DNA from: Gracilariopsis chorda | Lineage: Eukaryota; Rhodophyta; Florideophyceae; Gracilariales; Gracilariaceae | Length of the DNA stretch: 55,920 nt | Direction: 5' to 3' | Assembly: GCA_003194525.1 (NCBI GenBank) | Contig: NBIV01000375.1 | Span: 1 to 55,920 of the forward strand | In this document: positions 16,807-42,658 of the stretch, one piece after another | Layout: every line of letters starts with the position of its first letter | Numbering within the stretch: position 1 is the stretch's first letter | The notes under the pieces: generated by a model | The model's input: only the letters and a program-made list of their open reading frames with translations | Database searches by the model: none | What the model was told of the DNA's origin: nothing | Program-made: the position numbers and the translations under genes

Positions 16807-18647
16807 TTAGTGGTTATTTCCCTGGAGTCGGGCTATCAGAGCATCCCGCATCACGGTGACATCGCCACTGGCCTCGTTACCTCCCAGCCCCACTTGGCGG
16901 AGGAACTGAGAGATCACGGCAGCCTGACCCGCAGGGGCCACGTTTGCCTCACCTGGCGTAGAGGACCCACCAGTGCGAAGACCGACCGACGGATTGGACG
17001 GCTGACTCGCAGGGGCGACTCCAGGAGCATCCATACCATATGGTTCTCCCTCTGCCTCGGCGTGACCGGCACCTTCGTCGGGCTCGTTGTCGAACATCGG
17101 ATCCTCACCGTCGTAGACGTTGTAGTACTCATCGGCGTCAACAAAACCGGTCGGATGCCCCTCGGGGATATATCTCGGTGCAAACCGGAGCTCGTTCGCT
17201 TCCTCCGCGGAGATATCATGCCCCTTGCAAGGGTTGAAGTAGATGAAGTCACCCGAGAGCGGAGTTTGACGCCCTGGCGACAGGTCCTGTATCCGGCTAC
17301 CGGCAGTACGCCCACTCTGCTCTAGAGGAACCGAAGCCCAGTCAACCTGGTCGATGAAATCGAGGAGCCCCGCTACTTCGTCAGTGTTTGCCTCACCACC
17401 TAGTGGGATTCGTAAGTCCAGCGCTCGGATGGCGGCACGGACCCGCAACGGGATGAACCACAGTCTGAACTGGTCATAAACCTCCCAGAGGATGAAAGCC
17501 GCTGTGCGGACCGCCCATTCGGTGACCACCACGGACCAGAGTCCGGACTGAGGATCCTCGTTGAGGTATGAGCCGTAATACGTGATCACGGGAGGCAACT
17601 CGATGTAGCAACCTCGGCACGCTTCGAGATGCGACCACCACGGTGGAATCGGAACGTACCGACCCCGTCGGTTGACCACGCGGATGCGTTCGACTTTCAC
17701 GTTCTGATACGGAATCAAATACCCGAATCGGGACCGTGCTGGCCGCTCAAAGCGTATCATCGAAAAGAACTTGGCCCTCGCCAAGCGACGCATATAGCGG
17801 AATTCAGCCCGAATGATCGGTCGTGTCCAGCACACCGCGTCTTGGCGCGCCGCGGGAATGCTTCTCCACAAGAGTGGTTCCAAACCCGCGAGGCGGTCGA
17901 GGTACCCCATTTCACCTGGGTGCGATACAATCCGATGTCGGAGCCCATACCATCGGGGATGGGATACTCGAAGGGAGCCCGGCGAAGCCGTTGATGAGCG
18001 AGTAAGACCAACGCCGCGTGCGCGGAAGCTGCTGATTCCCGACCCCGTCGGATTACCGTGTGCACGGGTATCGCTACGCGATTGTGCCAATCCCACGAAG
18101 TGGTCACGATTGCCGGAACGTCACCCGGGAGCATTCCGTTTCCATCGGTATACATCGCCAGAAGGGCATCATTGAACACCGCAGTCGGGTGGAACCACGG
18201 CGCCAACCGGAGAGTCATGGCATGTTGCGAAGGCTGCAGCCCGACCAGCATGTCGTACGACAGCCACGCTGCCATTAGATACCCTCCCGTGGGAGCCGCA
18301 CTCGCATTTGCGCCTGTTTGTTGCGCTGGAGTGGAGAGACCGCTCTGCGATAGAGGCACGGAATGAAATCCGGAGAAGTACTGTAACGGTGTGTTGCTGC
18401 CGGCGTTGCCGTTGTTGTTGCCGTTGTTGTTGCCGTTGTTGTTGCCGTTGTTGTTGTTCATCGTAGATGATGGAAGCCGAGCAATCGGAGAAAAAGGCCG
18501 CGAAAGCGTGTGTGTTGTTGGAAGAACCTCGGAAGAGTTGGTCGCAGATTCGCTGTTCGCAGCTAGGTGCTCGTTACTCAGAGTGGGATGGAGAACCGGC
18601 GAGCCGGACTTACATTTAAGGACCTTGCCCGGTGCTTCCGTCGCCAT
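16807..18647 (-). pseudogene. Antisense ORF (aORF) of element A, one frameshift
   Basis: On the strand opposite to gag-pol, ATG 18647 begins 36 bp from the 3' LTR. The frame 18647-17757 has an Asn/Gly repeat (residues 63-84) and then a conserved region with APWFHPT and TSWDWHNRVAIPVH. It breaks near 17.9 kb, where the frame ending at 16807 takes over: RPIIRAEFRYMRR, RFGYLIPYQNVKVERI, ACRGCYIELPP, FILWEVYDQFRLWFIP, IPLGGEANTDE, GDFIYFNP and an acidic stretch with DPMFDNEPDE. All of these align in order with the aORFs of B and C. No signal peptide, membrane segment or known domain is recognised. The gene is convergent with pol and the chromodomain. Confidence 0.8.
18405..18462. repeat. Short tandem repeat encoding Asn/Gly tract
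   Basis: Units of GTTGTTGCC type on the plus strand encode a run of Asn with spaced Gly in the aORF on the minus strand. The aORF of B has a shorter Asn run at the same position. Confidence 0.8.
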
Positions 18648-18670
18648 CGTGGATGTCGTATTCGCACCTC

Positions 18671-18682
18671 AGGAGGGGGATA
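18671..18682 (+). other. 3' polypurine tract of element A
   Basis: AGGAGGGGGATA abuts the 3' LTR (starts 18683). The equivalent in C is AAGGAGGGGGATG before 42672. Confidence 0.85.
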
Positions 18683-19588
18683 TGAAGTGCAATCCTCAAG
18701 GAGGAAGACTCAGCGATGCCCTGTGGACTTGGTGTTTTTGCCGCTTTCGCGTGTTTATGATTACTACCGCTATTAGCGGGTGTGTCAGCCCTCAGCGGAT
18801 CCGCACTGTGCACCAGGTGCACAGTTGTGCATGCGCCGTGTGCCGCCCAAGGCGTGAGTGGACCACGTGTGACACGGATAGTCAAGAGGAGGTTGGCACC
18901 ACGGTGTGGACATTTAGTTAACTTATATATATTATTTATTATTTATCTACGCTACAGTAGGGAGATTACTACACTATATAGTGGCTTGGCGACCTCGCCC
19001 TGACACTGAGTAAACTTCCCCAACCAGGGTTCTTGGCTCTAAGTCTTTTCCGCTTTCGCGAGTCTTCTACACTCCTCGGAGGTAAAGCCGCGTTACTAAC
19101 GGTAGACCTATCCACCCTGCGTCACTAGGAGTATCACCGCCTTGCACTTGTCACTTAATTCACCACCGCCGTGTTCTCGCCCCTGTATAGGGTTTCCTTT
19201 GTACTTTTTTTTCGTGGTCCCGTTTGCCCACACCCCCGTCGCCCCCCAATCGGGCATCCCCCGTATTTCCCTTACCCCACTCTCGTGGTTCCTACCCCTT
19301 TGTGTGGTTGCTCGTCACCGCTGACGCGTGTCTCTCGTGCCGGTATCCCGTGACGCCCCCCCCCCACTTACGTGGACTCGTACTCCTTGGAAGGGCTGTT
19401 TTCCCATTCGTGGTGATCCTAATCCTACCGTTTCAACTCTCCCCGCTTGGCGTGAGAGTGAGCCTCGGCTTTACAACCCGACTTCGTCGTGCTCATCCGG
19501 AGAGGCTCCGTTCGCTGTGTTACCCTCCAGAGGGAAGATGATTCCGAACGTCTTCGTGTGTTGTCCCGCTTGCGGGTATTGCACTACA
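18683..19588 (+). repeat. 3' LTR of element A
   Basis: 906 bp, same ends as the 5' LTR, followed by the CTTAT duplication at 19589-19593. If the antisense gene has an LTR promoter, it would lie here, running leftward from around the palindrome at 18972-18983. Confidence 0.95.
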
Positions 19589-21544
19589 CTTATTTCTGTT
19601 CCCGTGCGGTACTATTATTGCCTTCATTGCGCGTTCTCCGTCTTCGTCCGTCTTGACCTTGTAAACCACGTGGGAAGTTATGACATTTGCGTTTCGGTCT
19701 ACCTCGTGCTCCGGTATTGGTGTGTATGCGTCTACCCAATTGGTGTCGTGTTCTTTCTGGAAGGGCTCGTCGAGGATCCATGCTGGTGCAAACGCAAGTT
19801 CTTTCTTGTTCACCTGTTTACTCCCGATGTGGTCAAATATGTTGTTTAGCACTTTCTGCTTATCCGACTTTAGTTGAGTTGGTACGTTCTCCTTCTGTTC
19901 TCTTCCCGTTGCGTGCACGCCGATGTCCTTCCTTTCCGCTTCTTCAATTCATGTCCGTGATGAAATCATGTGGTTGTTCGTCGGAAGCATATCTTTTGCT
20001 GAGCTCTCTTCCCTTCCCCCTGCTTCCGATGAATCAACTCCGTATCCAAGGGGGTCGTCGAGGGATCCTCGCATCAGTTCGGCTGTTAGCGGGTTATCTG
20101 GTACAAGACGAATGTCTTCGTAAGCGGTTTTCATTGGCCTGCCTTGCCGTGACCTTCGGGTAACAATATAGTGATCTCTTGCATCGAAGACTTCTGCTTC
20201 TGTCCAGTAAGCTGTTCCACGTGATGGTTTGATAAATACGTACACTTTTCTTCCCTGAGGTAGCATATAAGGGCTGGTAGTGATAGGTGACCGTGTCTTG
20301 AGGAGCCTGTGTAGCGCCCTTATCGCTACTTGCTCTTTGTGGGCGTCGAGGATCTCCTGCGATACAACCGAGGTCGGTATACCTAGCAGCGATGGGCTGT
20401 ATCCTTTCACCAGCTCGAATGAGCTCAGGATGGTTGAACCCGAGAAAAGATTAGACAGAAACGTTGCTCTGGTGAGAATCGTGTGGTGGTTGTCTTGCGA
20501 GTTCTCCTTATTCAGCTTTTCGATGATCTTCTTGACCGTTTGGTTTTTCCTTTCCACTATACCCAATTTGTTGTGCCTTCTTGCTGGTCTTGGGCGATAC
20601 TCAATTTTGTGGCTAACACAGAATGCTCTTAGGGATGGTTAATTGTACTCATCATCTGCGGATAATCTTAGTGGACATCCGTGTCTGCATATCCATATGG
20701 ATGCAATTTCCCCAGGGTCGTGGTTGTGGACCTATCTGTTACGATGGCTGCCTCCGAATAGCGTGTGCCGGTATCTGTGATGTGGATTATCGTTCGTTTC
20801 TCGCTATGGATATCTATGAAGAAGAAGTCGATCTGGACTTCTTGGTTGAAGTGTTCGTTCACATGGGACAAAGATATCTTTCTCGTTTTTGCCGGTTGCC
20901 CCGATTGGGCACAAATGTCACATCCGTCTGATATGGAATCTATAGCTTGTCTTAGTGCTTTGTCGAGTATTCCTGCGTCTTGGCATATCCTTTTCACTTC
21001 TTCGGGGCATGTTTATATCGATGTATCCGTTTGGCCAATGTTTTCATAGCCCGGTTGTGATTTGGGTTAGAACTGGTGAGGAGCATTTTCGAGATTCTGG
21101 TTACGTCTGGCCGCGGGACTATAAGCAGTCTGAATCGCTTGTCCGAACTGTTTACATCGATGTATGTTGGAAGTGTGCGTGATCCTTTATCTTCTGGTCG
21201 TTCGATGATGATCTTTTTGTGTTTGCCCTCTTTGATGGTGTCCGCGTACTGTTTTGTGTCGAGTCCAACGATTAGTGGATCGTTTCCGTCGGTCAGATCG
21301 ACTGTCAGAGAAAGCGGTTTGGAGTTCTCGTCGTCGACAGTTAATGTCGATGAGCATTTCACTGGTTTGGCGTTTATGCCGTTCGGGCCCCATCCTTGGA
21401 GGTATTCTTCTCGGGGAGGGTCTAAGTCTAGCTGTATTCCGAGTATATCACATATGCGCGCTGCTGTGGCAATACCTCCCGTCGATGTTGGTGCTCATTC
21501 GTCTAGAATGGGATTAGGATCTGGTTGGAGCTCACCGATGCTAC
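19589..21544 (-). pseudogene. Copia F pol, N-terminal part (PR, IN, start of RT)
   Basis: Several minus-strand frames line up in copia order. Protease: near 21500 the frame reads PILDE-stop-APTSTGG, where a TGA replaces the Gly expected in the D-x-G-A motif. Integrase: CDICAQSG (zinc-binding pair) and QIDFFFIDI near 20.8 kb, then IVERKNQTVKKII at 20566 with the catalytic Glu, then a basic C-terminal domain. RT start: 19918 onward, NWVDAYTPIPEHEV and a stretch ending just at the insertion of A. Frameshifts separate PR, IN core and RT. It continues at 7929 on the other side of A. Confidence 0.8.
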
Positions 21545-22756
21545 TTACTGAACATACTGCCTATCTTCTGGTTTCGATTCTTCCTCTTTCTCCGCCGTAT
21601 CTTGTACATCGTCTGCCTTATGCTTCTTACTCCATGGTTGATCCTCTCGTCCGAAGTTCGGTCTCTTCCTGTTCAGTGGGTGCATTTCGCATTTACGATC
21701 TTTCCATTGATGATCCAGTTTATCGCATGCCCAACAATTTCCTTTCTTACGAAATGATGTTCGCTTATGGTTGAATCCGGATGAACTAAATCCTTTTCCG
21801 GCTATCATAGTCTTTGTGATCTTAATCCCGCCTTCTGTATCAGCAGTTGCCTTCTTATCCGTTGGGTTGTCGACCTGTAGGTCTTTTATTGCTGCCACAG
21901 CATCCTCTAGGCATATGAAAGATCATTCCGATTTCTCCGTCATGACGAACTTATGTGGGTTCAAGATGTTGTTGATTGTTTCGTGACACTCTTTCACTTC
22001 AGCTACGTTGCTTTTCTCTGATGTGGCTTCTTGTACCGCGCTGCTGTCTTTCTCGGATCGGTGCTTGTTGAGGTTGAGTATATTTGTTAAGATACCCTTC
22101 AATTTGTGCAGCTTCGACGCCGTTATATGATGGTATGTATCGGATATAACTGGATTGACTCTTGCAGCTGCAATCAATGAAGATACGACGTTGTTGAATG
22201 TCACTGTTGATAGCTTCGAATTTTCTAATAGTACCATCGCAAATGTCTGGCTATCTTTTCCGTTGTCCTTGGTTCCTGATAAGTTGAGATACGCCTGTGC
22301 GTGGCCATAAAACCGATCGGCGTATCTGGTGAAGTTCTCATTATCTTGTCGAATCCAGTTGTGGATTGTTCTAATCATTTTCACTTTGCGCCGAACCGAG
22401 TCTGATACTGAGTCCTTGGCTACGAGGCATATGATCTTTTCCAATGCCTCGATACGTTGTTCATTGGGGTTGTTGCTGGTGCTACGTAGACATATTTCCC
22501 TTGCATCCACAGATCGATTTACAAGTTGTTGGTTTCCGTAATTCTTGCAGGAGTATATTGTAAGACAAAGGGTGTTGGCTACTCCTTTTGCTCTGTTGTC
22601 TCCTCCTTCTGCATAATTGAAGATTCTTTTTGGCCATATCCGAACACTTTGTCGCCACAAATATTTGTCAGTTGTGGATTCTAGTCTCGGTGGTTCGAGA
22701 AGGTGGATGGGTGAAGAGTGCGCTGGGCCCATAACTGTGGGTTGAGTGGACTCCAT
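21545..22756 (-). pseudogene. gag: Gag of copia element F
   Basis: ATG 22756 lies in the LTR end and a second in-frame ATG at 22732 overlaps the PBS (ATGGGCCCAGC). The frame is open to TGA 21923-21925 and continues in the same frame to 21545. The N-terminal part looks like a copia-type capsid (WIRQDNENFTRYADRFYGHA is typical). The second part has a degenerate zinc knuckle, CWACDKLDHQWKDRKC, with CX2CX4HX6C spacing rather than CX4HX4C. The internal TGA is taken as a nonsense mutation. It is not functional as a whole. Confidence 0.8.
22715..22735 (-). other. Primer binding site of F, complementary to tRNA-iMet anticodon arm
   Basis: The plus strand reads GTGCGCTGGGCCCATAAC directly against the LTR. 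This matches the anticodon stem-loop of eukaryotic initiator tRNA-Met (GCUGGGCCCAUAAC) up to nucleotide 39. The Drosophila copia element uses a half-tRNA-iMet of this kind as primer. The stretch is therefore a PBS and not a tRNA gene. Confidence 0.8.
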
Positions 22757-23037
22757 ACTAATTACGGACTGTGACAAATACAATCAGAGCACAGTATTAA
22801 GCACAATTGCCCGGAGTCCGCCCTTCTTCTCTCGCTTGGCCCTCTCCTCTCGTTTACTCTGAGCCTCATCGCTCCTTTTATAACACTCGCACGCGGCCGT
22901 TCTCCCTCCTGATATATCTTTCTGTTCCGACCTTTCATGTATGTCAGCTATCGCGGTGCGCTGCGATCAATTCCGGCCCGTGCTTTTGTTTAATTACAAA
23001 GTCCAATATCAATTCGACACATATACGTCTTATCACA
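22736..23037 (-). repeat. 5' LTR of copia element F
   Basis: 302 bp, matching 6171-6472 with about seven differences. The CCCAC duplication follows at 23038-23042. Confidence 0.92.
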
Positions 23038-23042
23038 CCCAC

Positions 23043-23444
23043 AGTGTAGAGGTCAACGGTCCCCTCAGGGCCGTTCCAAACAAGCGTTCTGGCATACCAG
23101 CGTACCAGAGTTTTCACACTTGTACGATAGTAGTTCGCCCTCCGACAATCAAAACATCATAGGGATCCCAAGTAGAAGTTCAGCTCTTAATTCGACAACT
23201 TCCGAAATTTTGGTGAAGCACCTCCACCAAAACGTTAATCTCTCAACAACCAATAGAAGTATTTTGGTTCTCATACGTGCGTCATATTTGCAGCACAATC
23301 AACATGCAACAACTCACCCCACAAGAATCACGAACGTACTTTTCGTCATATCAATAAGCTAACGTAATGGCTGTAAAAGCCCAAAAATAAAGGGTTTCAA
23401 ATAGTGGCAATATATATGTGCCGGTTTAAGCAGCTGACCGTTCA
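23043..23444. other. Unique DNA between F and B, no gene seen
   Basis: A hairpin, TTTTGGTG (23208-23215) with CACCAAAA (23225-23232), is present. The rest is AT-rich and has no supported ORF. Confidence 0.5.
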
Positions 23445-23904: not shown

Positions 23905-24698
23905 TTTAGTGCAATGCCCGGAAGCGGGAGTGCACCGAAAGACGTTCGGGATCTTTCCTCGTTAGAGGTGAGCCCAGTTGGGTAGAGCCCTCCCAGGAGT
24001 GGCACGACTATTTCGGGTTGTAAGGCCAAGGCCACCCGTCGCGACTTGCGCGGGGGGGTTGAGGCAAGAATCGGGTATCTGCAGGAGCGGTGTATCGGCG
24101 TGTTCGTCCTCTAGAGAGGTGAGGTTTCCACGTTAGTGGCACGCGCGAACATGAGCCGTGGGTAGCGGGAAAGCCACCCTGTAAAGGGAAAAATAAGGGG
24201 GAGCTGAGTCACGAGTGTCGTGACGAAGACTAACGGCAGTGCCGGTAAATAAATCTTATACAAGGCGAACACCAAGACAGCTGGAATAACAATCCGAATA
24301 CTCGGGTCCTTTAGATAGGCAAGGGGTAGACTTCCCGTATGCGACGGTGCTTCCCTCCAAAGAAGAGTAGAGAACACGCGAAGGCGGTGAGGTCTAGAGC
24401 TAATTCCCCAGGTTGGGGTCCCTTGTTGGGGAAGGGTTACTGGTGCGACGGCAACCCGCCGGCCCACTAGGTACTAACCATCCCAGAAGTGGGTGGAAAA
24501 ATAATAAATAGAATTAACTAAATTACTCCACTTTGGTGGTTCATGCCCACTACTGTGGCCAACCGCCAATTGACTCTTCCGTGTCCCACATGTCAAATCC
24601 ACTATTATTGGTCGTAGTTAATGCAATGACTACATTACCGAAACATTCGGGAAATCAACCAAGTACCAAGAATCCCTCGCTGAGGGCATTGTACTTCA
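23905..24698 (-). repeat. 3' LTR of element B
   Basis: About 794 bp. Its start on the minus strand is TGAAGTACAATG; its end reads CATTGCACTAAA where the 5' copy has CATTGCACTACA, so the terminal CA is mutated or lost. The preceding PPT (minus, AAGGACGGGCATA) is degraded compared with A and C. Confidence 0.9.
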
Positions 24699-24754
24699 TA
24701 TGCCCGTCCTTAGTCGGGAAAGCAACCGCGAACGCGGGCGAATCCCAGTGGAAA

Positions 24755-26581
24755 ATGGGTGATAAAATTCCAAACCTCTCCGGGTCACCGGGTCAGGCCT
24801 CTGCCTCAGAGAAACAACCTCCTGCAAAAGCAGCGAACCAGCCTTCCACAAGTGCACGCTCCTCCTCTTCCTGCTCAACTCAGTCAGATAATGCCCTTTC
24901 GAAGGGGAATATGAACAACAACAACAACCAGCCTCCAAGACCGACTCCAGTCGGGAACTTCACAACCGGTTTTTGGTCGGTACCCTTTCCACAAGGGAGG
25001 CGAACTCCTGCACAGCCGGCACACACTGGTGCAGCGTCCCAGCATGGGTTCCAACTTCCACCAGCAGTGGCTCCCTCCGGACTGATCCCGGCGGCGACTT
25101 GGCCTTCTTATAACGCCCTTGTAGGGTTAGATCAGATGAATCGGAGTCACGCCTCTCGGCTCCGGCTTGCGCCGTGTTTCCATGCCATTGCTGCCCTCAA
25201 CGAGGATTTGGTTACGGCCTACGCGGATGGTTCCGGTACTTTGCCCGGGGATCTACCCAGCGTTGTCACCTCGTCGTGGGACTGGCGGCATCGAATCGCC
25301 ATCCCGGTGCACCATATCCGAAGAAACTCGGGAGAATCCGCGATTGCGGCTCATGCTGCGCTGGTGCGGATTGCATATCAACAGCAGAGCTGGGTGCCTT
25401 TCGAATTACCGGTGCCTACCGGCTTTGGCTTCGACGTTAGCCTATTCCGCACGCGCGGTGAAATCGGTTACGGCGAACGCCTGGCCAGCCTCGAAACCCT
25501 CGCGTGGAGGAACCTTCCTGCTGCGCAGCAAGAAGCCGTGTGTTGGGAACGACCGATACTTCGGGATGAATTCCAGTACCTTTCCCGGCATTTCCGGTCC
25601 ATTTTCCTCCAGAACTTCATCCGTTATGAACGGCGCTGGCGATCCCGATTTCGGTACTTTGTCCCGTATCATAACGTGGAGATTGAGCGGATTGCTCCGC
25701 CTTACCGACACGGTCGGTACGTCGCACTCCCCGAGTGGTGGAGGTTCCATGAAGCGTGCCGGGGTTGCTACGTTGAACTCCCGCCGGCACTCACGTACCT
25801 CGGTTCCTTTGTGATTCAGGGTCCCCGGTCGGGGTTTTGGTCGGTAATTGTAATCGAGTGGGCTGCCCGCACTGCGGCGTATATCCTCGCTGAGTTTTAT
25901 GACCAGTATCGACTGTGGTTCATCCAACCACTTGTGCGGGCCACTATTCGCAATCTGGACCTCAGCGTTCCCCTTGGGGGTATTTCCAATAATCACAAAG
26001 TACTCCAATTACTCCGTTTGATTGACAGTATTGACTGGCGCGAGATCCCGCTGAAACAGAGCGGTCGGCTTAACGGCGGCGGTGGCAGTACTGGTGGTCC
26101 GGGTCTTGGTAGAAACACCGCCCTTGCGGGGGACTTCATCTACTTCGATCCCTGGGAGTTCCGGGAGATTTCCTCCAAGGAGGCGAGGGAACTCTGCGAC
26201 GAACTGCGGCACGTGCCGGACGACCACCCGATTGGGTACGTCGATTCCGACGATTATTACCGCGCGTATAGCGGGGATGGCCCGATGGTCGATGACGAAC
26301 CCGAAGAGCCGGGGGACATGGAACTAGACGTTGCCGACATGGTCGTAGACGAATCCCCCGAGGCGGTGCCTCCGGTTCCCAGTCCTCCGACGGCGAGCGC
26401 CAGGCCTTCACTCCCCAGCGGGGGTACAGTCAATGAAAGCGATATCATTGTCCGCTTCCTCCGCGGAGCGGGTTTAAGCGCTGCCGAGGTTTCGGGTGAC
26501 GTCACCGCGATGGCGGATGCCTTGGCTTACCGCCTTGCGGGTGGTCACGCCCCGGACGATGGGGAGGGGTCGAACCTCTAA
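24755..26581 (+). CDS. Antisense ORF (aORF) of element B, intact, 608 aa
   Basis: The ORF is open from 24533, but that start is a TTG inside the LTR. ATG 24755 (MGDKIPNLSG) is 57 bp from the LTR boundary, matching the position in A and C. The protein has a Ser/Gln/Asn-rich N-terminus (about 60 residues, with NMNNNNN), a central domain of some 350 residues rich in Trp, Tyr, Phe and Arg (SSWDWRHRIAIPVHHI, RPILRDEFQYLSR, FRYFVPYHNVEIERI, GRYVALPEWW, ACRGCYVELPP, SGFWSVIVIEWAARTAAYIL, YDQYRLWFI, IRNLDLSVPLGG, GDFIYFDPWE, DDHPIGYVDSDDYY), an acidic tail (DGPMVDDEPEEPGDMELD), a Pro/Ser linker and a short C-terminal helix region with SGDVTAMADAL. No known domain is recognised. It is the only unbroken aORF here although B is the most decayed element. 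It runs opposite to pol and converges with the chromodomain. Confidence 0.85.
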   Translation: MGDKIPNLSGSPGQASASEKQPPAKAANQPSTSARSSSSCSTQSDNALSKGNMNNNNNQPPRPTPVGNFTTGFWSVPFPQGRRTPAQPAHTGAASQHGFQLPPAVAPSGLIPAATWPSYNALVGLDQMNRSHASRLRLAPCFHAIAALNEDLVTAYADGSGTLPGDLPSVVTSSWDWRHRIAIPVHHIRRNSGESAIAAHAALVRIAYQQQSWVPFELPVPTGFGFDVSLFRTRGEIGYGERLASLETLAWRNLPAAQQEAVCWERPILRDEFQYLSRHFRSIFLQNFIRYERRWRSRFRYFVPYHNVEIERIAPPYRHGRYVALPEWWRFHEACRGCYVELPPALTYLGSFVIQGPRSGFWSVIVIEWAARTAAYILAEFYDQYRLWFIQPLVRATIRNLDLSVPLGGISNNHKVLQLLRLIDSIDWREIPLKQSGRLNGGGGSTGGPGLGRNTALAGDFIYFDPWEFREISSKEARELCDELRHVPDDHPIGYVDSDDYYRAYSGDGPMVDDEPEEPGDMELDVADMVVDESPEAVPPVPSPPTASARPSLPSGGTVNESDIIVRFLRGAGLSAAEVSGDVTAMADALAYRLAGGHAPDDGEGSNL

Positions 26582-32120: not shown

Positions 32121-32125
32121 CAAGG
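32121..32125. repeat. Target-site duplication of element C (left)
   Basis: CAAGG before the 5' LTR of C is repeated at 43585-43589 after the 3' LTR. It lies in the protease coding region of B. Confidence 0.95.
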
Positions 32126-33038
32126 TGTAGTGCAATACATTCCCGCGTACGGGCGATGGTGAAACTCATATCTGAGGTGTACTCGGTGCGAGCGATGAAG
32201 CGGGATGCATGAATTTTAGCCCCCGTTTACCGGGCTAATTGGCGGTCGGGTTACCCAGGGTGGTTATGGGAACATTCATATTTTGTGGTACCTGCCTGGC
32301 AAGGGTGGTGGACACGTGGCTACAGCCCCGGCCAGGAGGCCCAAAACGGCTACTTGTTTTAGTATAGTTTAGGGGTTAATTTTACTTAGGCTAGTGCACT
32401 ACCTACTGTACTGCACTGAGCTAGTACTTGAGCGTCGGCCGCACGGCGGCGAGCTCACCAAGAAAAGTAACAAGAGTTCGGCTCTTACTCTATTCGCCAT
32501 GCGAAGTGTCTAACTCCTCGCGGAGGTACATCGCTTGCCCGATAGTTTCACCCGACTCGCACCACCGAGGAGACCGTGCTCGTCGTACCCAGTGGGTTGT
32601 GACCACTCGTGGTATTCATTGTTGTCGTGTGACCGCCCGTACAGGCCCTATCTCCGCCCCAGTTTTGGGTATTGATATTACCGACGTGTGTCGTGAGACC
32701 GTGAGACCATCCCTTCCCCTCATATCCCCTAACCGCCGCGCGGTGCGTGTTCGTGTGTGTGTATCGGCACCCCCCTCCGGGGTCTGTTCCCGCTTTCCGC
32801 ACGCCCCCGTCGGGTGGTCCCTTTCCCTCTTTTGTTCCCCTGTTCGCAGGCTACTTCCGGACCAGCCGTGGTTCCGACCCGTTCTAACCCCTAAACCTCC
32901 GAGGTACATCCAGGCTCCCGACGGAGTTACACCCGTCATACGGGACACGGAGGGCTCTACCCAGCTGGGCCTACCTCTCCAAGAGAGCAAGGCTTCGAGC
33001 TGCCTTGGGTGCTTTTCCCACACCGGGATTGCACCACA
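32126..33038 (+). repeat. 5' LTR of element C
   Basis: 913 bp, matching 42672-43584 without length change. AT-rich promoter-like sequence (TTTTAGTATAGTTTAGG) lies near 32356. Confidence 0.96.
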
Positions 33039-33040
33039 AG

Positions 33041-33058: not shown

Positions 33059-33196
33059 CGGGTTTGGCTTTCAAGCCGGCCTGTCGGAAGTCCGCTTCCC
33101 CTTTTCCCTTTTTTCCCTTTTATCCCTTTTTGCTCATTCGTTGAGATTCCCTAGCCGTGGGACTGGTGAAGTAAGCCGTGGACGGCTATCTGCAGT

Positions 33197-36100
33197 ATGC
33201 TGCCCACAGCTCCGAGTTCCCCCAGGAATGGTCCGCAACGGAACGCCGCAGCGGCGAGATCACGAAGGTCCGTTCCGGAACAACTACTTACCGATGCCGT
33301 CGGTCTGGAATCCCAAGGAATCCCATCGGCAACCTCGGTGCCTCGAGCCGTGACAGCTGTGGCCACTACGCCACCTCCGGTGGTCGAAACGCCGTCGGCT
33401 GTCCCCCCGAGACCCGGGTCGCCTAAGTACCATCTCCTCGAGTCGAGAATCGACATTGCCAATGTGGCCCACGCCTCCCTCTCGCAGCAAGTTACCGAGT
33501 TGGAACGGCGATGGAGTGACTCCCTGGCTCGGGATTATTCGGGAGATATTCGTCTCCTGAGAGCTGATGTGAATTCCATTCTGGAGTGTCTGGGTACTCC
33601 GGCTGCCTTCGTAGAAGGATATCGGGAGTTCGTGGAGGAAGTTAAAACCCATATGATGCGGGTAACCGGACGTATGGACACGCTGGAAGCGTTGCTCAGA
33701 GAAGACCTGAACGCTCCGAGACAAGAGGAAGTGAAGGTCATCTCAACCCAACGCCGCTCCAGTCACCTCCCCCGTCACCCTGGAAAGAGAGTTCATCGTT
33801 ATGAAGTTTCGTCAAGTTCCGACTCGGAAACAAGTTCGAGTAGCTCGCCTTCGAGATCATCGCGTGAAGGGAGAGGCCGCCGTCGCGGAGAAGAACCTAG
33901 TTCGAGGGCTACCTACACCTCCCATGGAGCCATCCGTGCGCGGGAGAAAGGTCGCCGTCATCTCGGCTTGAAGGAATTGAAACCGACGAATCCCCTTTAC
34001 AGGAAGCTGTTGTCCTATCGTTATTACCGATTGGAAGACTCTTCGGGCACTCGAAGTTCGAGAGACACCGGTCGGGTGAAGGATCTCATACGTCGTATGA
34101 ATGTGACGATGCTTAAGCAGAAGTTCTCCGGTGAAGATCCGATCCTCGTGTTGGATTTTCTGGCCCGCTTTGTGCAGGAAACAGACGTACTCGAAATGAG
34201 TGAGGCGCAGGCATACGTTGCGTTGCCCTACTTTCTTTCAGGAATGGCTGAAGATCAGTACAACTCGGTCAGGGGTTCGTCCAGGGCCTCAGAAGGAGGT
34301 GTTACGTGCTGGCCCGAGGCTGTACACTACCTGCTCAGGTCGTACGCGACGGGAACTGCAATCAGTCAAGCCATCGTGGCGGTTCGCGATACGAAACAGA
34401 AGCCTGGTGAAACGGAAACGTCGTATTCAACTCGCTTGAATAAAGCGTTTCATCGTTGTGGAAATGTGTTTACCGCTTTTGAGCGTTGCTCCATGCTGGT
34501 GGATGGTTTAGATCCTGGTATCAGGGCACTGGTGTCCCGCTACAGGGAAGAGAAGCGCAAGGCGACGTATCTGGAACTGGTCCAGTACGCACAGGCTGAG
34601 GGTGACACCCTCAGAGCGAGAGACCCGAGGCGTCGGTCGTCGAAGGCTCTCTTCGTCGAGAACGAGACTTCCTCGGCATCTCTCCCTAACCCGGGACCAC
34701 CTTCCGGATTTGCGGATAACATCCAGTATCTTGGCAGTCTTGAACAGTCGTTGGCAACCTCGGAACTGCCGTCCACGGTTACACCCCCCGTGGTAGATCC
34801 GGCCTTTTACGCAAACCCCGGTCGGGTTCCCCCAGCCCCGCTAGCCTACGCGTCGAGCGCCACAAGACACTCCCGCCCGGGATGGTCCAACCCGAAGCAA
34901 CTAGCATTCCAACCACAACACCCTCAGCACCGCGGAATGATGTCCCACGCCACCGGAACACGTTCAGCCCCGCTGATTTGCTACATTTGTTACCTTGAAG
35001 GTCATACTGCGTCGCAGTGTACCCTCCCCATTCGCGAGATGTGGAAGATCGTGGGAAATTATGAGAATCTCCCACCGGAGCATAAGGCTCGTGTCCCGAG
35101 TAATTCGTATGAAGACGCAAAGGCTGCGGTCCACAATGCTCAAGCTCGAGAAGCCTCGAAAGCCGCGAACGGTAACAACCCTAACCTTTCGGAACGGGCT
35201 CAGCCGCACCCAGCGGTCGATTCGGTCCCGAAAAAACTAATCTTGGGAGTCTCCCCCACGGGAGGGGTGTCTTCCAAGCCGAAGTTGAAGACGCCTGAGG
35301 CGCCACCGCTTCGCTCCCCTGCCAAAATCCTTACGAGGAAACTGGCTCAAGAAGACGTGAGCTCGGACCACTTAGTGGCTCTGCGTCGTCCGTGGATACG
35401 GTCCCGTAACCTCCGCATCCCGGATCGAGTTTTGGTAATGGCCAAGAGGAACTATAAAGTTTATAGTGACCTCGGTCTCTCTAACCAGTTCATGGTTCGT
35501 CAGTTATCTGTCCTGGATACAGTTGCCGCTCCGAACCTGATCAATATCGGGATTATTCCACCCGCCATGCGGAAATGCATTCGCATTGGTCCAAGTCTGG
35601 ATCTGGCAGACGCTAATAACAACCCGCTCCAGACTCTTGGAACAATTCCTCTGGTACTCAGACTAGGCACCTACGTGGTGAAGTTGGACTTCATCGTATG
35701 CGACTCTCTTGCTGCACCGGTCATCCTCGGTTGTGATTTCTGTGACCGCTTCGTGGAAGCCATCCGCCCTCGCTCCAGATCCGTGGAATTGGCCAACGGT
35801 TCGACCATCCCGATTGTACGGAAGCCCTTGCGACACGCCTCCCGTAAACGGGTACCTTTACCTGCTGCTCAGGAAGCGTCCAATGTGGATCGAGCATCTA
35901 CGAAGATTCGCGTCGCGGAACCAGTTTCGATCCCGAAGGAATCTCAGGTGTGGGTCTCAGTAACATCCAAACACCACGGGTTGCAGGTTGTTCAACCGCT
36001 CCCCTCGCTCTACGAACAGCGCCGTCTCGCATTAGCAAATGGGATCGTATCCGTCGAGCCGGACAAACCCTTTAAGGTTCTCGTTGCTAACCTCGGAACT

Positions 36101-39100
36101 ACCACTCAGTGGTTGGTTAAAAACCAGGTCCTGGGCAACATGCTTCCGCACCCGTTGGCTATCCTTCCTACAAAGATTCCGATATCCGACGTTCTCGGAA
36201 TACAAGACCCTAAGGAGGGGGAGGAGGTCCCGTTCGTTCCGTTGGATCCCGCCCGGGAAAGTTCAGATTCGACTGTCGAAGAAGCTCAGAAGAGCACGAC
36301 TTCAGCATCGGCAGATACTGCGTTAGACCCAGAACAGGCTTTGGATAAGTTGGACCTGGATCACATTAATGAATCTCATCGTGAGAAGTTTCGTGACATG
36401 CTCAGGGACTTTACCGCCATGTTGGACGGTTCCCTGGGGACGATAGGGGTAACCGAACATCGGATTGATTTGTTGCCGGATACACGGCCTATTGCACAGC
36501 ACCCGTATCGGGCAGGCCCTAAAGCAAGGGGGGAAGAGAAATCTCAGGTGGAGAAGATGCTGCGAGCTGGAGTTATCGAAACAGCACAATCCCCTTGGGC
36601 TTCTCCTGTTGTCCTTGTTCCGAAAGCCGATGGATCATGGCGTTTCTGTGTGGATTACCGCCGCCTGAATGCGGTTACTGTCAAGGACGTCTATCCGATT
36701 CCACGAATGGACGAGTACATTGACTCCCTGGGGAGCGCAACGGTGTTCACTACCCTCGATGCCAATTCGGGATACTGGCAGGTCTCTATTAGGAAAGAAG
36801 ATCGTGATAAGACCGCGTTTGTGTGCCACCAAGGACTATATCGCTTTAAGCGAATGCCGTTTGGACTAATGAATGCCCCAGCTACATTCCAAAAGGCAAT
36901 CGATATCCTCTTGGCGAGGTTCAAATGGACCAGCTGTCTGGTATACTTGGACGACATTATAGTGTTCTCCAATAACTTGGACGATCACCTGTCCCATGTC
37001 CGGGAAGTCTTGACAGTGCTCCGCAACGCGGGCATCACCCTGAAGCTGGGAAAGTGTGAGTTCTGCGCCGATTCGGTAAAATATCTGGGGCACATCATCC
37101 GCCCCGGACAGCTTTCAATCGATGAAGCAAGAGTGAAATCACTTCGAGAGGCGAAACATCCGACTAATCAAACGGAGCTTCGATCCTTCCTAGGACTTTG
37201 CAATGTATATCGCCGATTCGTCCCGAACTTCGCCGACTTGTCAGCACCGCTTAACGCACTCCTCCGGAAAGGACAACCCACCGAACTGGACGTCTTTGAC
37301 GAGGCTGAGTCGTCAGCATTCTCGTCTTTTGTCGACGCTGTAACGTCCCCGCCAGTTCTGGCCTTACCGCACCCGGACTTACCCTTCGAAGTGGATACTG
37401 ACTCAAGTGCCCACCAGGTGGGTTGTGCGTTGTTTCAAGTCACGGAAGAAGGAGAAAGACATCCGATCGGATATTGGTCACGTTCGTTGAACGTTCACGA
37501 GCGCAACTACTTGTCCGAGAAGGAGTGTCTTGCTGTTGTTTGGGCGTTGGCGACGCTTCGCCCATATCTTATGGGTAACCATTTCAAGGTTCACACCGAT
37601 CACTCGGCTCTCCGTTGGCTACTCGAAATTCGAGAACCGTCGGGCCGCCTCATGCGTTGGCGTCTCCGACTCTCGGAATTTACATTTGATGTCCTCTACA
37701 AGAAGGGATCCCTGAATACTCAGGCTGACGCCCTATCGCGCTTAGGAACATCAGCGGAAACCGAACCGGTCGACGATCTGGAAATACCATGTTTCATGGC
37801 ACAATCCTCGGAGGGAACGGAAGAAGACGACCCAGACGTGAATGGGGATGACATCTGTGACGATATTCTAGCTGCAAACCCTACGGATCCTCCGGATGAC
37901 CAGGTTGTTCCCATATCCTCTGAGGAAATGATCCGTGAACAACAGCAGGATTCTTTCTGTGCCCAGATTCGTGCCCCTCTTAACGGGGGCGCACAGATAC
38001 CCTTTGCGGTGAACGATCGAGGCTACCTAGTCAGGTTGCTGACACGGACCCCACAGATCGTTGTACCTCACACGCTGCAGCAGCGCGTCTTGCATCTATC
38101 GCATTACGCGAAGTTGGGTGCACATCCCAGCGGGAGGAAACTATACCTGACCCTTCGCAGGGACTTCTATTGGCCTGCTATGGCATTTGACTGCTATGCA
38201 GTTCGCCGCTCGTGCGTGGAATGTGCGAAGAATAATGTAAAACTTCGGAAGTACTCGAAGAAGTTAACACTATTCCCGGCACGGGCGCCACTCGAATATG
38301 TCGCTATTGATATCTTGGGCGAGCTTGTCAAAACCAAACGTGGTTACAAGTATCTTCTCGTCATTACTGACCGCTTCTCAAAGTTGGTGAGAACAGTACC
38401 GCTCAAACGGATTACCGCGGACGTGGTTGCGCGTGCGTTCGTAACCCACTGGGTCTTTACTTACGGCCCGCCGGTACATCTACTCTCCGACAACGGATCT
38501 CAATTTACCTCAAAGTTCTTTCAGGACGTATGTAGAATCTTGGGAATCAAGAATATGTTTACTACCACCTACCACCCGCAGTGTAACGGACAAGTGGAAC
38601 GATTCAATCGTACTATGCTCAACGCACTGCGCGCGTATGTCGCGGATCACCCCATGGAATGGGACTTGTACACGGACGCTATTACGTACGCGTATAACAC
38701 CCAGGTACACCGGGTCACGACCCTCGCTCCATTTGAGCTGGTCCTGTCTCGGATTCCGCCATCCATGGCTATTGAAGCGCAACCGAACGTCTCGGGGTAC
38801 CCTTCGACAAGGTTATATCGAGATTCCTGGAAGGAATGGTTGAAGAACATGGTCCCTACCGCCCGAAAGGCTATGAGAAAAGCCCAGGAGGCATACAAAC
38901 AGAACTTCGACGCGAAGATTCGTACCCCGATACCCCAGGTCTCGGAAGGGGATTCTGTCTTCCTGCGAAAGGAATATTATAATCCCGAAAAGGAGAAGCG
39001 CCACAAGTTGTCACCGATAGTGAATGGACCCTATCGGGTGGTTTCCGTCGCCGACGACACAGTCGTACTGGACATCGATAACCAGTTCGAACGCGTCTCA

Positions 39101-39655
39101 CGCGACCGCGTAGCCCACGCGCCTGCGCCCCCTGAGGGCTCATCACCGCTCGTGACAATCCCGGAGGATGACCTCGTAACTCCGCCAACGGATAATCTGC
39201 TTCCGTCCCGCCCACCCGTCTTACCGCACCCGGAACGGGAACTCTCGGATCTTCCGATTGCCGATCAACCGGTTGAGCGCGCCGCGCGTATCGTGAAACG
39301 CACGCTTGACCCCAAACGCCTAACCGTTACACCGCCCGCGGAGGTCCTTCAGCCTGAACCCACCCCCCTCTCACCTAAGGAGGGGGAGGGACGGGAATCG
39401 ATCGCGCCATCGCGGAAGGAAGCTCCGGCGTCGGACGGTGTCCCGTTTCATACGGCATCGTCGGATGAGCACCCCCGGAGCAGGGAGGAGTTGAACGCAT
39501 CTCGAAGCGAGAAGGCCGTCTCCGCGGACCCGGATGCACTCCTGTCGAGCGAGTCGCTGGGTAGCGAAGGAGGAAGTAGTGAACCGGACTCGGTGTGGTC
39601 ACTAATGTGGCGAATGATATCTCCGAGCACGGAGCACATACAACCTCGGTCATAA
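33197..39655 (+). CDS. gag-pol: Fused Gag-Pol polyprotein of element C, 2152 aa
   Basis: One uninterrupted frame from ATG 33197. Gag: capsid-like region with YYRLEDSS and RGSSRASEGGVTCWPEAV, then zinc knuckle CYICYLEGHTASQC at 595-608. Protease: LDTVAAPN, with DTV at 774-776 where A and B have DTG. RT: YLDD at 1250-1253. RNase H: EVDTDSSAHQVG and [23 protein letters not shown] zinc finger and D,D35E at Asp1705, Asp1765 and Glu1801. The C-terminus runs past the IN fold into an acidic linker with PKEGEGR encoded by the internal purine tract. Compared with A, a net insertion of about 28 nt after the QN-type end of gag brings gag and pol into one frame; the old slippery site remains at 35231-35237. 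Loss of the protease Gly suggests dependence on proteins from relatives. Confidence 0.96.
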   Translation: MLPTAPSSPRNGPQRNAAAARSRRSVPEQLLTDAVGLESQGIPSATSVPRAVTAVATTPPPVVETPSAVPPRPGSPKYHLLESRIDIANVAHASLSQQVTELERRWSDSLARDYSGDIRLLRADVNSILECLGTPAAFVEGYREFVEEVKTHMMRVTGRMDTLEALLREDLNAPRQEEVKVISTQRRSSHLPRHPGKRVHRYEVSSSSDSETSSSSSPSRSSREGRGRRRGEEPSSRATYTSHGAIRAREKGRRHLGLKELKPTNPLYRKLLSYRYYRLEDSSGTRSSRDTGRVKDLIRRMNVTMLKQKFSGEDPILVLDFLARFVQETDVLEMSEAQAYVALPYFLSGMAEDQYNSVRGSSRASEGGVTCWPEAVHYLLRSYATGTAISQAIVAVRDTKQKPGETETSYSTRLNKAFHRCGNVFTAFERCSMLVDGLDPGIRALVSRYREEKRKATYLELVQYAQAEGDTLRARDPRRRSSKALFVENETSSASLPNPGPPSGFADNIQYLGSLEQSLATSELPSTVTPPVVDPAFYANPGRVPPAPLAYASSATRHSRPGWSNPKQLAFQPQHPQHRGMMSHATGTRSAPLICYICYLEGHTASQCTLPIREMWKIVGNYENLPPEHKARVPSNSYEDAKAAVHNAQAREASKAANGNNPNLSERAQPHPAVDSVPKKLILGVSPTGGVSSKPKLKTPEAPPLRSPAKILTRKLAQEDVSSDHLVALRRPWIRSRNLRIPDRVLVMAKRNYKVYSDLGLSNQFMVRQLSVLDTVAAPNLINIGIIPPAMRKCIRIGPSLDLADANNNPLQTLGTIPLVLRLGTYVVKLDFIVCDSLAAPVILGCDFCDRFVEAIRPRSRSVELANGSTIPIVRKPLRHASRKRVPLPAAQEASNVDRASTKIRVAEPVSIPKESQVWVSVTSKHHGLQVVQPLPSLYEQRRLALANGIVSVEPDKPFKVLVANLGTTTQWLVKNQVLGNMLPHPLAILPTKIPISDVLGIQDPKEGEEVPFVPLDPARESSDSTVEEAQKSTTSASADTALDPEQALDKLDLDHINESHREKFRDMLRDFTAMLDGSLGTIGVTEHRIDLLPDTRPIAQHPYRAGPKARGEEKSQVEKMLRAGVIETAQSPWASPVVLVPKADGSWRFCVDYRRLNAVTVKDVYPIPRMDEYIDSLGSATVFTTLDANSGYWQVSIRKEDRDKTAFVCHQGLYRFKRMPFGLMNAPATFQKAIDILLARFKWTSCLVYLDDIIVFSNNLDDHLSHVREVLTVLRNAGITLKLGKCEFCADSVKYLGHIIRPGQLSIDEARVKSLREAKHPTNQTELRSFLGLCNVYRRFVPNFADLSAPLNALLRKGQPTELDVFDEAESSAFSSFVDAVTSPPVLALPHPDLPFEVDTDSSAHQVGCALFQVTEEGERHPIGYWSRSLNVHERNYLSEKECLAVVWALATLRPYLMGNHFKVHTDHSALRWLLEIREPSGRLMRWRLRLSEFTFDVLYKKGSLNTQADALSRLGTSAETEPVDDLEIPCFMAQSSEGTEEDDPDVNGDDICDDILAANPTDPPDDQVVPISSEEMIREQQQDSFCAQIRAPLNGGAQIPFAVNDRGYLVRLLTRTPQIVVPHTLQQRVLHLSHYAKLGAHPSGRKLYLTLRRDFYWPAMAFDCYAVRRSCVECAKNNVKLRKYSKKLTLFPARAPLEYVAIDILGELVKTKRGYKYLLVITDRFSKLVRTVPLKRITADVVARAFVTHWVFTYGPPVHLLSDNGSQFTSKFFQDVCRILGIKNMFTTTYHPQCNGQVERFNRTMLNALRAYVADHPMEWDLYTDAITYAYNTQVHRVTTLAPFELVLSRIPPSMAIEAQPNVSGYPSTRLYRDSWKEWLKNMVPTARKAMRKAQEAYKQNFDAKIRTPIPQVSEGDSVFLRKEYYNPEKEKRHKLSPIVNGPYRVVSVADDTVVLDIDNQFERVSRDRVAHAPAPPEGSSPLVTIPEDDLVTPPTDNLLPSRPPVLPHPERELSDLPIADQPVERAARIVKRTLDPKRLTVTPPAEVLQPEPTPLSPKEGEGRESIAPSRKEAPASDGVPFHTASSDEHPRSREELNASRSEKAVSADPDALLSSESLGSEGGSSEPDSVWSLMWRMISPSTEHIQPRS
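35231..35264 (+). other. Relic -1 frameshift signal in element C
   Basis: A AAA AAC followed by TAA (35231-35240), read in the frame gag would have without the 28-nt insertion, is a canonical -1 heptamer next to a stop. A hairpin CTCCC-CCAC-GGGAG (35251-35264) follows at the same 12-14 nt spacing as in A and B. Confidence 0.55.
36212..36227 (+). other. Internal purine tract between PR and RT of C
   Basis: AAGGAGGGGGAGGAGG shares the core of the 3' PPT (42659-42669). It is in frame as Lys/Glu/Gly codons. Confidence 0.5.
39377..39391 (+). other. Internal purine tract after integrase of C
   Basis: AAGGAGGGGGAGGGA, with the same core and location as in A and B. Confidence 0.55.
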
Positions 39656-40098
39656 CCAGTTTCGTGGTGAGCTGAAAAGCAACCGCGGACACGGAGAGTG
39701 TGGTTGACACTGCGTGCGCTACCGCAGAGCCCCACAAATGGACACTGTGACGCCACTGTCACGCGGACGAAGCCCGAAGTTCCAAACCGTGGAAAGGTGT
39801 ACACGTACATACCGCCGGCCGGCGTCAGGAGTACAGTCAAGACCCGCGTCGTGGAAAGACCGCGTGCGACACTTGCCGCCAGCGGCCAGCCAATCACAGT
39901 GTGTGATGCATGGCAATCCGCCTCCTGGCGTCGGAACCGTAGTGAACCGCCTCCCTCACCGTGAACGGTCAAACTCACCAGAGTTGCACGGGTCGCGTGG
40001 GAGAAGAGCTCGCGAGCTGCGAGTCAATAGGGGAATCCGGTTAGAACGGAAGGCCCTCCCCCCCCACAAGGAGAGGATTAGGAAGCGGAAAGACCGCA
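39656..40098 (+). other. Decayed linker between Pol and chromodomain in C
   Basis: Shifted frames of Arg, Pro, Ser and Thr-rich composition fill this stretch (for example 39714-40142 and 39698-39964), corresponding to the linker of A. No single frame joins pol to the chromodomain. Confidence 0.5.
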
Positions 40099-40443
40099 AT
40101 GCGGTATCAAGTCCCAGCACTCGCAGCGTCGAGGAAAGCTGACTTTGCCCGCAGGGTCGCGCCAATTTCAGGCAAGTCCCCTCACAGGGTTCTCCCCTTA
40201 AGCCCTGCCATGACGGGTCAGGAGCCGGCTACGTACGACCAGGAGTTTGTCGTTGACCACATCGTGGATCATGTTCTGGACTCCAAAGGAGTGTGGTTTT
40301 ACCAAATCCGATGGTACGGATACCCCCCGGAAGAGGACACATGGGAGCCCATTCAGCACCTTCCTCGTTCCAAGGTGATAACCTACCACCGCCGGACGCG
40401 GTTCCCACTCCCATCCACTTTGGACATGGCCCAGGTTGGGTAG
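40099..40443 (+). CDS. Chromodomain ORF of element C
   Basis: 114 residues with YDQEFVVDHIVDHVLDSKG, QIRWYGYPPEEDTWEPIQH and LPRSKVITYHRR, a full chromodomain with the conserved Trp of DTWEP. It starts at an ATG but is more likely the tail of a longer protein. The frame is -1 to gag-pol, as in A. A 15-bp direct repeat (ACCGCCTAGCGGTCC at 40586-40600 and 40628-40642) lies between this ORF and the convergent aORF. Confidence 0.8.
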   Translation: MRYQVPALAASRKADFARRVAPISGKSPHRVLPLSPAMTGQEPATYDQEFVVDHIVDHVLDSKGVWFYQIRWYGYPPEEDTWEPIQHLPRSKVITYHRRTRFPLPSTLDMAQVG

Positions 40444-40779
40444 GACGATACACTGCACTATGCAGAAGATTCCGAAGACGGAAGAGAAGTCTCCGAAGAG
40501 AAGAGGACACAGGAAGAGATCTGGCTACAGAAGGTTACACGAAGTAATGGACTGGATAGGGAAACCAATGGTCATTGGACGTCACACCGCCTAGCGGTCC
40601 GACCGAAGTAACGGTTTAATGAAGAATACCGCCTAGCGGTCCAGCATGAAGATGCTATGAAGAAGAAAAAGAAGAGTCCGAACATACGGATATAGAAGAA
40701 GGAAGTCGTTTACCACAAGCTATGGAGCGTTAAGCGCTAACCTATATCAGGTGTGCGTGCCACGGTCCAGGATCCTGAC

Positions 40780-42620
40780 TTAGGATGAGCCGCTCGTTGG
40801 CGGTTGGTAGTTCGCAGACGCGAAAGCCAATAACTCGCTCACGCTGGTGAGGTTGGAAGGCGCAACCACTCCAATGGACTGGAGGTGAGCCCTGAGGGCA
40901 ACGGCCTGAGGGTCCACGGGGACCGGAGATGCGGTAGACGGAGAAGCAGCCGCACTGGCGGCCATATTCCAGCCATCTGGAGCAGCCACATGCTGGCCGG
41001 ATCCGTCGAGATCGTTGACCATCGCCGTTACCGGGGCTACGGCCTCCTCCACCTCATCGGGGTCGTCATCCACCATTGGATCATCCTCGTAGGAACCGTG
41101 CCAGTCATCGGAAAACATGAACCCAACCGGGTGGCCTCGCGGAACGGAGCGTGGTACATCGCGTAACGCTAGCGCGTGAGCCCGTGAAGTCACGGATACC
41201 TCCCAAGGGTCATAGAAGACGAAGTTGCCAGCGTTTGGATTTCTCCGGCCTGGAGAGCGATCATGCCTGGAAGGCTCACCGTCAGGGACGTTGGAGACTG
41301 GGACTGTATCCCAGTTAACCATATCGATGGTGTTCAGAAGGCACTGAAGCTCATCCACATTGGCTTCGGATCCCAGAGGGATATAGAGATCCAATCGGCG
41401 GATAACCTGGCGTAGGTGAGGAGGAATGTACCACAGACGGTTCTTGTCGTACACCTCCCAGAGGAGAAATGCGGCAACGCGAGCAGCCCATTCGGCGAGG
41501 AAGAGAGTCCAGTAACCGGAATCCGGATTGTTGATTAATCGTGAACCGATGTAGCTGAGGCACGGAGGCATCTCCGCAAAGCATCCCCTCGGGACTTCGA
41601 ACCTGCTCCACCAATGGGGAAGAGGTGCATACCGGCCGCGCATCGCGGATGGACGGAGCCTCTCGACCTCGAGATTTTGGTATGGTACCAGGAACCCGAA
41701 GCGGGAGCGCGCCTTTCGCTCAAACCGGAGTCGGTCGAAGAAGGATCCGCGATGATTCGGACGACGAAGATATCGGAACTCTGCACGCAGAATTGGGCGC
41801 CTCCAGAGGAGCATCCCGGCTTCTATTGGAGTAGACCGGAACGGTGTAGATGGCTGGTAGGCAGCAAGGTTCTCGCAGTATGAGACTTCACCGTAGGTAC
41901 GGTACCGCGAGAGGTCAAAGCTGTATTCCGTTGGTATCAGCTCATCCGGATAACTCGCGCGGGCGAGACGGTCGTAGGCGACCTTGGCAATCCCGGCACG
42001 GGCGTCATTCAGCGTCTCGAAACCATATCTGGTGCGCTTCCGTGCGAGGAACTGTGGCTCTACCGCGATACGCGTCCTCCAGTCGAAGGAGTCGACCATA
42101 TCCCGGCCTAGTCCCCCTGGGAGCTCGCCCTCCTCCACATAGAAGTCGATGAGGTCCGAGTCGGAAACCAATGTGGGGTGGAACCAGGGCGCACGCGAAA
42201 AGAGGAGAGCGTCTTCCCGGGGATTGCGGGCCCAAAGTGTCGATGGTGACACCCAGCCGGCGGCGGTCGCAGTGATCGGTATCGCTTGGGCGGAATTCCA
42301 GGCGGCGATACTCGCGGCATCCGAGGCATCCAAGGTTGGAACATGAGACGATCCTCCAGGCAGAGGCAAGGAGAGGAACCCAGAGGTTGGGTGACGAACC
42401 CACGACCCCGGCGTCGCGAAGGAAGGTTGCCGCTCGCGGAAGTCCCCTGCGGGGCGCCCGCAGGCGGGTTGTTCGAAAACGGAGTGTTGGTCATAGTAGA
42501 GAGGGGCGCAGAGTCTGTTGAAGAAGGTACTGAGGGTTGATCAGTTGTAACCGTGTTGGTACGGGGGACCGGTATCTCGGCGATTCCCTTGTCGGGACTA
42601 TTTATACCCTCGCGCCTCAT
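40780..42620 (-). pseudogene. Antisense ORF (aORF) of element C, one frameshift
   Basis: ATG 42620 (MRREGINSPD) is 52 bp from the 3' LTR. Its frame holds a Ser/Thr/Pro-rich N-terminus (an alternative ATG is at 42494) and stays open to about 42108, but homology passes to another frame near 42.40 kb. There the 529-aa frame 42369-40780 carries the conserved core: APWFHPT, DSFDWRTRIAV, RPILRAEFRYLRR, RFGFLVPYQNLEVERL, GRYAPLPHWW, RGCFAEMPP, FLLWEVYDKNRLWYIP, IRRLDLYIPLGSEANVDE, NFVFYDPWE, GHPVGFMFSDDW and DPMVDDDPDEVEE. The TTG at 42369 is not a likely start. It is more diverged from A and B than they are from each other. Span (1841 nt) equals that of A. Confidence 0.8.
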
Positions 42621-42658
42621 CTCCTCACGTTCTATACTCACGTTCGTTTTCGGCCCTT

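Follow-up and report, generated by a model that had tools for sequence, protein, structure and literature searches.

An antisense gene in three chromodomain retrotransposons

The window analyzed here, a stretch of 55,920 nucleotides from the red alga Gracilariopsis chorda (contig NBIV01000375.1, assembly GCA_003194525.1), contains three complete long terminal repeat (LTR) retrotransposons of the gypsy type: A on the plus strand, B on the minus strand, and C, on the plus strand and inserted within B. Each carries an antisense open reading frame (aORF), which runs opposite to gag-pol and lies in the interval between chromodomain and 3′ LTR. The sole unbroken aORF in the window is that of element B (24755..26581, plus strand), which lies in an open frame spanning 24518-26581, is overlapped by no sense gene, and is likely translated from 24755 or 24911 (MNNNNNQPP). 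In element A the gene is on the minus strand and broken, with an N-terminal piece at 17757..18668 and a C-terminal piece in a different frame at 16807..18120. The element C copy, also on the minus strand, is open in good frame from 42540 to 40780 (40780..42540) and broken near its N terminus, as an upstream start near 42620 falls in another frame. Both were recognized from the list of open reading frames and their protein match to B. Other copies of the C family are open further, the commonest listed open frame having 643 residues versus 586 in the window copy. A preliminary description of this DNA, made from its letters, had proposed one large antisense frame in each element; related frames are indeed present in all three, but the A interval 16807-18647 comprises two frames and the C copy is interrupted.

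The three aORF proteins are related at 36-50% identity. B matches C at 38% over 459 columns (E 7e-87), the main piece of A at 49% over 385 columns (E 2e-120), and the N-terminal piece of A at 48% over 183 columns. The ordered motif set that had been described as common to all three is found in related but not identical letters: WFHPT reads CFHAI in B, SWDW reads SFDW in C, and RPILRAEF reads RPILRDEF in B and RPIIRAEF in A. A C-terminal GDVT helix, previously noted as SGDVT in A and B, occurs in exactly those two, is absent from C, and is found in several distantly related proteins as well.

The elements themselves, delimited by LTR pairs from repeat comparison, have the features of chromoviruses, namely reverse transcriptase (RT), RNase H, integrase and a chromodomain, the last with a sub-threshold Pfam Chromo match in A (E 0.023, under the curated cut-off) and a clear motif in C. 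Element A is bounded by LTRs at 7930..8833 and 18683..19588 (97.6% identity), with a pol frame at 11027..15415 in which Pfam finds RT, RNase H and integrase, and a further frame at 15001..16497 that ends in the chromodomain, all on the plus strand. The LTRs of element B lie on the minus strand at 46073..46867 (5′) and 23907..24698 (3′) and are 94.7% identical. Element C has plus-strand LTRs at 32125..33038 and 42671..43584 (99.3% identity) and is nested in the gag-pol of B (23907-46867). Its gag-pol frame (33170..39655, plus strand, from the frame list and Pfam) encodes RT, RNase H and integrase, and its chromodomain (40210..40443, plus strand) is convergent with the aORF. Across 39655-40443 the pol and chromodomain frames differ in this C copy, while some other copies have one common frame. 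A polypurine tract at 42657..42670 (plus strand) adjoins the 3′ LTR of C, and the aORF leader begins on its far side.

Selection on the antisense frame

Comparison of the B aORF with a sister-family copy, L051, over 551 codons gives dS 0.912 and dN 0.161 (synonymous and nonsynonymous divergence, respectively), and thus an omega (dN/dS) of 0.176. A six-frame test on the same pair finds a ratio of nonsynonymous to synonymous differences (pN/pS) of 0.29 in the aORF frame, with 0 stops, whereas the other five frames have pN/pS of 0.42-2.05 and 13-30 stop-containing codon pairs. This rules out the reading of the aORF as a shadow frame, in agreement with the preliminary description. There is practically no chance that the frame is an artefact of this kind or of simple sequence: the antisense frame at offset 1, which mirrors the codon phase, does have a milder signal of the same sort (pN/pS 0.42), but contains 26 stop-containing codon pairs against 0 in the aORF, no sense gene overlaps the frame in B, and an aORF profile finds 19 outside proteins.

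Between families, omega is 0.13-0.26 where dS can be computed, synonymous sites being mostly saturated in the more distant families. Within young families omega is 0.6-1.3, with the pairs that involve L052 including a frame-shifted stretch. Most copies within young families are probably dead, and values of this size are expected of recently dead copies; they nonetheless lend selection no support there, and weigh against the functional reading favored below. The dN/dS comparison that had been proposed as a check thus yields a divided answer, in which purifying selection is seen in the sequences between families and not within them. With an omega of 0.176 and at least 82 matches listed for a single query, the protein is both conserved and present in many copies, and we regard the aORF as almost certainly a real gene under selection.

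Linkage to the element and common descent

The genome searched comprises 91.3 Mb in 1081 contigs, and linkage was tested in this one genome. Four aORF queries gave at least 82, 82, 76 and 109 matches in overlapping sets, from which at least 257 aORF places were compiled by hand; for the C-family query, 68 of the 82 matches listed have no internal stop. In all 50 loci examined, corresponding to all 41 distinct copies, a chromodomain on the opposite strand lies just beyond the end of the aORF, so that the linkage anticipated earlier is borne out in this genome; in the window elements the gene lies antisense between pol and the 3′ LTR. Conversely, 73 of the best 150 RT hits have a listed aORF on the opposite strand at 3.2-4.7 kb (median 3.7), compared with 2 pairs in control arrangements. 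The remaining 77 have no listed aORF, which is not proof of absence, as the six that were checked illustrate: contigs C390 and C47 do carry an aORF (that of C47 cut at the contig end), C214 ends at this point with a 15-residue aORF match, and C279, C10 and C43 have the beginning of the aORF only. Sixteen RT hits with scores of 133.5-134.0 bits form a block in which no aORF is listed, and perhaps represent element families without the gene.

The aORF diverges in step with its element. Pol identity is 65.9% for A-B and 63.7% for A-C, and gag-pol identity is 60.0% for C-A and 57.1% for C-B, while aORF identity is 50% for A-B, 47% for A-C and 39% for B-C. The rank order of divergence is the same for pol and aORF, with the aORF evolving faster (39-50% versus 57-66% identity). 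As judged from these sequences, the aORF is inherited along with its element.

One annotated G. chorda protein, BWQ96_10156 (P0003, L022), matches genome aORF copies at up to 99%. Its gene model includes an intron that removes 29 codons; because these keep the frame and look like coding sequence in the other families, the intron is probably a wrong gene model. Another protein, P0008, similarly lacks a conserved stretch.

Copies that lack the core of the gene

Two copies of family D, on contigs C10 and C43 (L060, L061), have a common deletion that begins at aORF codon 75 and reaches almost to the end of the chromodomain region. The two stretches are 99.7% identical, but similarity stops at the LTR and the flanks differ, so they are separate insertions. 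Their RT open frames are 1712 codons (C10, reading through the chromodomain) and 1672 codons (C43, stopping within it), and both keep the aORF leader, TATA-like site included, as well as its first 75 codons. In a third copy of this family, on contig C279 (L057, L062), the aORF is lost after codon 129 through a different deletion, next to a pol frame of 1722 codons. Since these core-deleted copies have long pol frames, the elements can do without the aORF core in cis, and copies lacking it have nonetheless spread. Absence of the frame from intact relatives had been named in advance as a point against a conserved gene, and it was found in part, in that most of it is gone from three copies whose pol frames still measure 1672-1722 codons.

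A TATA-like site beside the 3′ LTR

Measured along the aORF strand from the side of the 3′ LTR that meets the polypurine tract, a TATA-like site is found at 64 bases in element C (TATAAATA, 42600..42607, minus strand) and at 60 bases in element B (GATAAAAT, 24761..24768, plus strand), and a weak one at 61 bases in element A (CTTAAATG, 18613..18620, minus strand). The best site is also at 61 in family D (L022) and at 59 in family E (L027), which places it at 59-64 bases in 5/5 families tested. The summed TATA score over positions 55-85 is 30.4, compared with a shuffle mean of 21.95, and was matched in 0 of 5000 shuffles. Additionally, the positions of the best sites vary in register with the reading frame from family to family, and a DNA signal therefore fits better than a peptide motif. 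On this sequence evidence the aORF probably has its own promoter.

Several points weigh against such a promoter. The test window and weights were set after family C had been viewed, and the shuffles were base shuffles that ignore the kinship of the families. The site is weak in A, and in L053, a relative of A, it is only tied with others. All five of these families also have an in-frame ATG ahead of the TATA-like site, 34-54 bases from the LTR edge, and a conserved upstream ATG would suit a transcription start inside the LTR instead. A downstream start (MNN or similar) is common to A, B and most C copies, and the N-terminal extension from the upstream ATG has pN 0.38 and pS 0.57 over 35 codons only.

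Predicted fold of the aORF protein

The aORF product is predicted to have a globular core with disordered tails. The core, which spans about residues 37-440 of the C frame and whose residues are strongly conserved among the aORF relatives, is modeled as one globular domain with a predicted local distance difference test (pLDDT) score of 86.1 and a predicted template modeling (pTM) score of 0.87; an earlier model from 12 sequences had a pLDDT of 64, too poor for its Foldseek and BFVD searches to inform. Foldseek comparison of the better model with the PDB returned no structural relative. A Pfam scan of 22 aORF proteins identified no family, with a best E of 0.11 or worse, and searches of PHROGs and NCBIfam with the aORF gave no match. 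Pattern stretches in viral contigs (2 and 1) and in prokaryote contigs (58) included no relative. The statement that the protein resembles nothing known thus survives profile searches and comparison with the sequences and structures of the PDB, and the modeled core, which folds confidently, is possibly a new fold.

Weak hits were taken as chance. In Pfam these were a MUM1-like PWWP domain (E 0.11), DUF6127 (E 0.14) and others at 0.15-0.26, and among PDB sequences UHRF1 (E 0.15 and 0.51), SETDB2 (E 1.7), RanGAP1 (E 4.2) and mL77 (E 3). An Env-like third gene was likewise rejected, as the frame is antisense and its highest 19-residue Kyte-Doolittle mean is 1.31 in B and 1.29 in C, with no membrane segment. 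The aORF proteins are lysine-poor, having 3 lysines in 556 residues for B (24911-26578) and 4 in 529 for C (40783-42369); arginine is not reduced, and the gag-pol lysine content is 4.4-4.5%. Strand base bias or the avoidance of ubiquitination could be the source.

Other features of the window

A repeat pair of about 305 bases (6169-6473 and 22734-23038, 97.7% identity) flanks element A together with open reading frames at 19949-22783, and is probably what delimits a short-LTR element that A inserted into. At the window ends lies a 1.4-kb direct repeat (2808-4239 and 54476-55920, 97.7% identity) with a spacing of 51.7 kb, adjoined by inverted repeats at 1-460 and 53379-53842. Rfam and tRNA scans found nothing.

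Possible function of the aORF

There are several possible explanations for the maintenance of this gene. We tentatively favor, with slightly less than even confidence, a trans-acting accessory protein that is made from integrated copies, through an antisense promoter bordering the 3′ LTR on its inner side, and that acts on transcription, chromatin or the pre-integration complex. RNA polymerase II would start about 30 bases beyond the TATA-like site and produce a separate antisense mRNA, which could come only from integrated DNA copies and never from packaged sense RNA. The protein would then act in trans, the nucleus being the likeliest site, with the element's own transcription, its chromatin state or the pre-integration complex as its target, by analogy with what has been proposed for gene23 of Grande and TRP28 of Retand. 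Element activity would thereby be tied to the presence of integrated copies, and convergent transcription across the aORF would pair sense and antisense RNA. The same core deletion in two insertions with different flanks favors a function supplied in trans. A fuller version, which we find possible though rather doubtful, adds that within the scope of the searches the new fold occurs solely in red-algal chromodomain retrotransposons, that it is encoded by a separate antisense unit whose TATA box keeps a fixed distance from the polypurine tract and is made after integration only, acting on the element or its chromatin, and that deleted copies depend on complete ones for the trans-acting product. 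Against a regulatory protein acting in trans stand three observations: dispensability in cis suits a non-essential gene equally well, a crude pattern for a classical nuclear localization signal found none in the B and C proteins, and nothing in the predicted fold points to nucleic-acid binding.

One alternative, which we consider unlikely, is a structural or import factor with no regulatory role, residing in the virus-like particle or pre-integration complex and aiding assembly, nuclear entry or target choice. A chromodomain accompanies the aORF in all copies examined, a globular core with disordered tails would fit, and repeated loss in cis is as expected of something suppliable by other copies. 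Particle proteins, however, come from sense RNA, a route from which an antisense gene is cut off, and the core resembles no solved fold, that of capsid included. A similarly small chance is given to counter-defense, in which the protein would block host silencing, for example by small RNAs from convergent transcripts. The accessory nature of the gene and its fast evolution relative to pol fit an arms race, but core residues are strongly conserved and no known suppressor was matched in Pfam, NCBIfam, PHROGs or the PDB.

It is quite improbable that the aORF is a captured host or viral gene riding as a passenger with a function unrelated to the element. An outside origin is conceivable in that no similar sequence was found in other element types; yet none of the 41 distinct copies examined is free-standing, no relative appears in the viral and prokaryote contigs searched, and the gene follows the rank order of divergence of pol. 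Antisense RNA control of such elements is raised in PMC7264820, and the convergent arrangement and the retention of the TATA-like leader and first 75 codons in deletion copies would fit copy control by pairing, with the reading frame a by-product. The chance of this is very slight: selection acts on codons, stops are excluded from the aORF frame alone, and amino acids are kept while third positions saturate, which is unexpected for an RNA mechanism.

Relation to known antisense genes

In flowering plants and some fungi, accessory genes on the antisense strand of LTR retrotransposons have already been discussed, and we know of none whose function has been established. In human T-cell leukemia virus type 1 (HTLV-1), the antisense regulatory gene HBZ lies at the 3′ end of the provirus and is expressed from integrated copies; its promoter is within the 3′ LTR, whereas the TATA-like site of the aORF is just outside the LTR.

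The closest parallels in layout are from plants. For gene23 of Grande, a maize Ty3/gypsy element, experiments demonstrated its own promoter and a nuclear product (PMC7264820). Like the aORF, gene23 is an antisense accessory gene in the interval between pol and the 3′ LTR, and is present in most copies of its family; an upstream promoter of its own would be a further shared feature, although that of the aORF is so far a predicted motif. Unlike the aORF, gene23 belongs to a flowering plant, and Pfam reveals no sequence relation between the two. The comparison with Grande made in the preliminary description is therefore apt: the layout is the same and the protein has no detectable relation. TRP28 antisense frames, reported for recent Retand elements, where 97% of clusters have them (PMC11963269), also have this layout. 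However, none of the 22 aORF proteins matches TRP28 (PF04195, Transposase_28) at E 1 or better, Retand is of a non-chromovirus lineage whereas a chromodomain follows pol here, no long tandem arrays were found in the 3′ regions of our elements, and the host group is the red algae. An antisense frame of Boty in Botrytis, known to us from its mention in PMC7264820, is likewise an antisense accessory gypsy frame outside land plants.

In the open-licence PMC literature we found no paper describing the red-algal aORF. The layout is already known from land plants; the new part, as far as sequence comparison indicates, is the red-algal protein without relation to TRP28, whose core model is a candidate new fold. 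The same layout with an unrelated protein suggests that the layout, rather than one protein, has been repeatedly favored, and raises the question of why. The aORF is compact, well folded in prediction and multi-copy, and comes with natural deletion copies, which makes the function of such genes directly testable. If the fuller version described above is true, antisense accessory genes would have originated repeatedly, from unrelated proteins in red algae and land plants.

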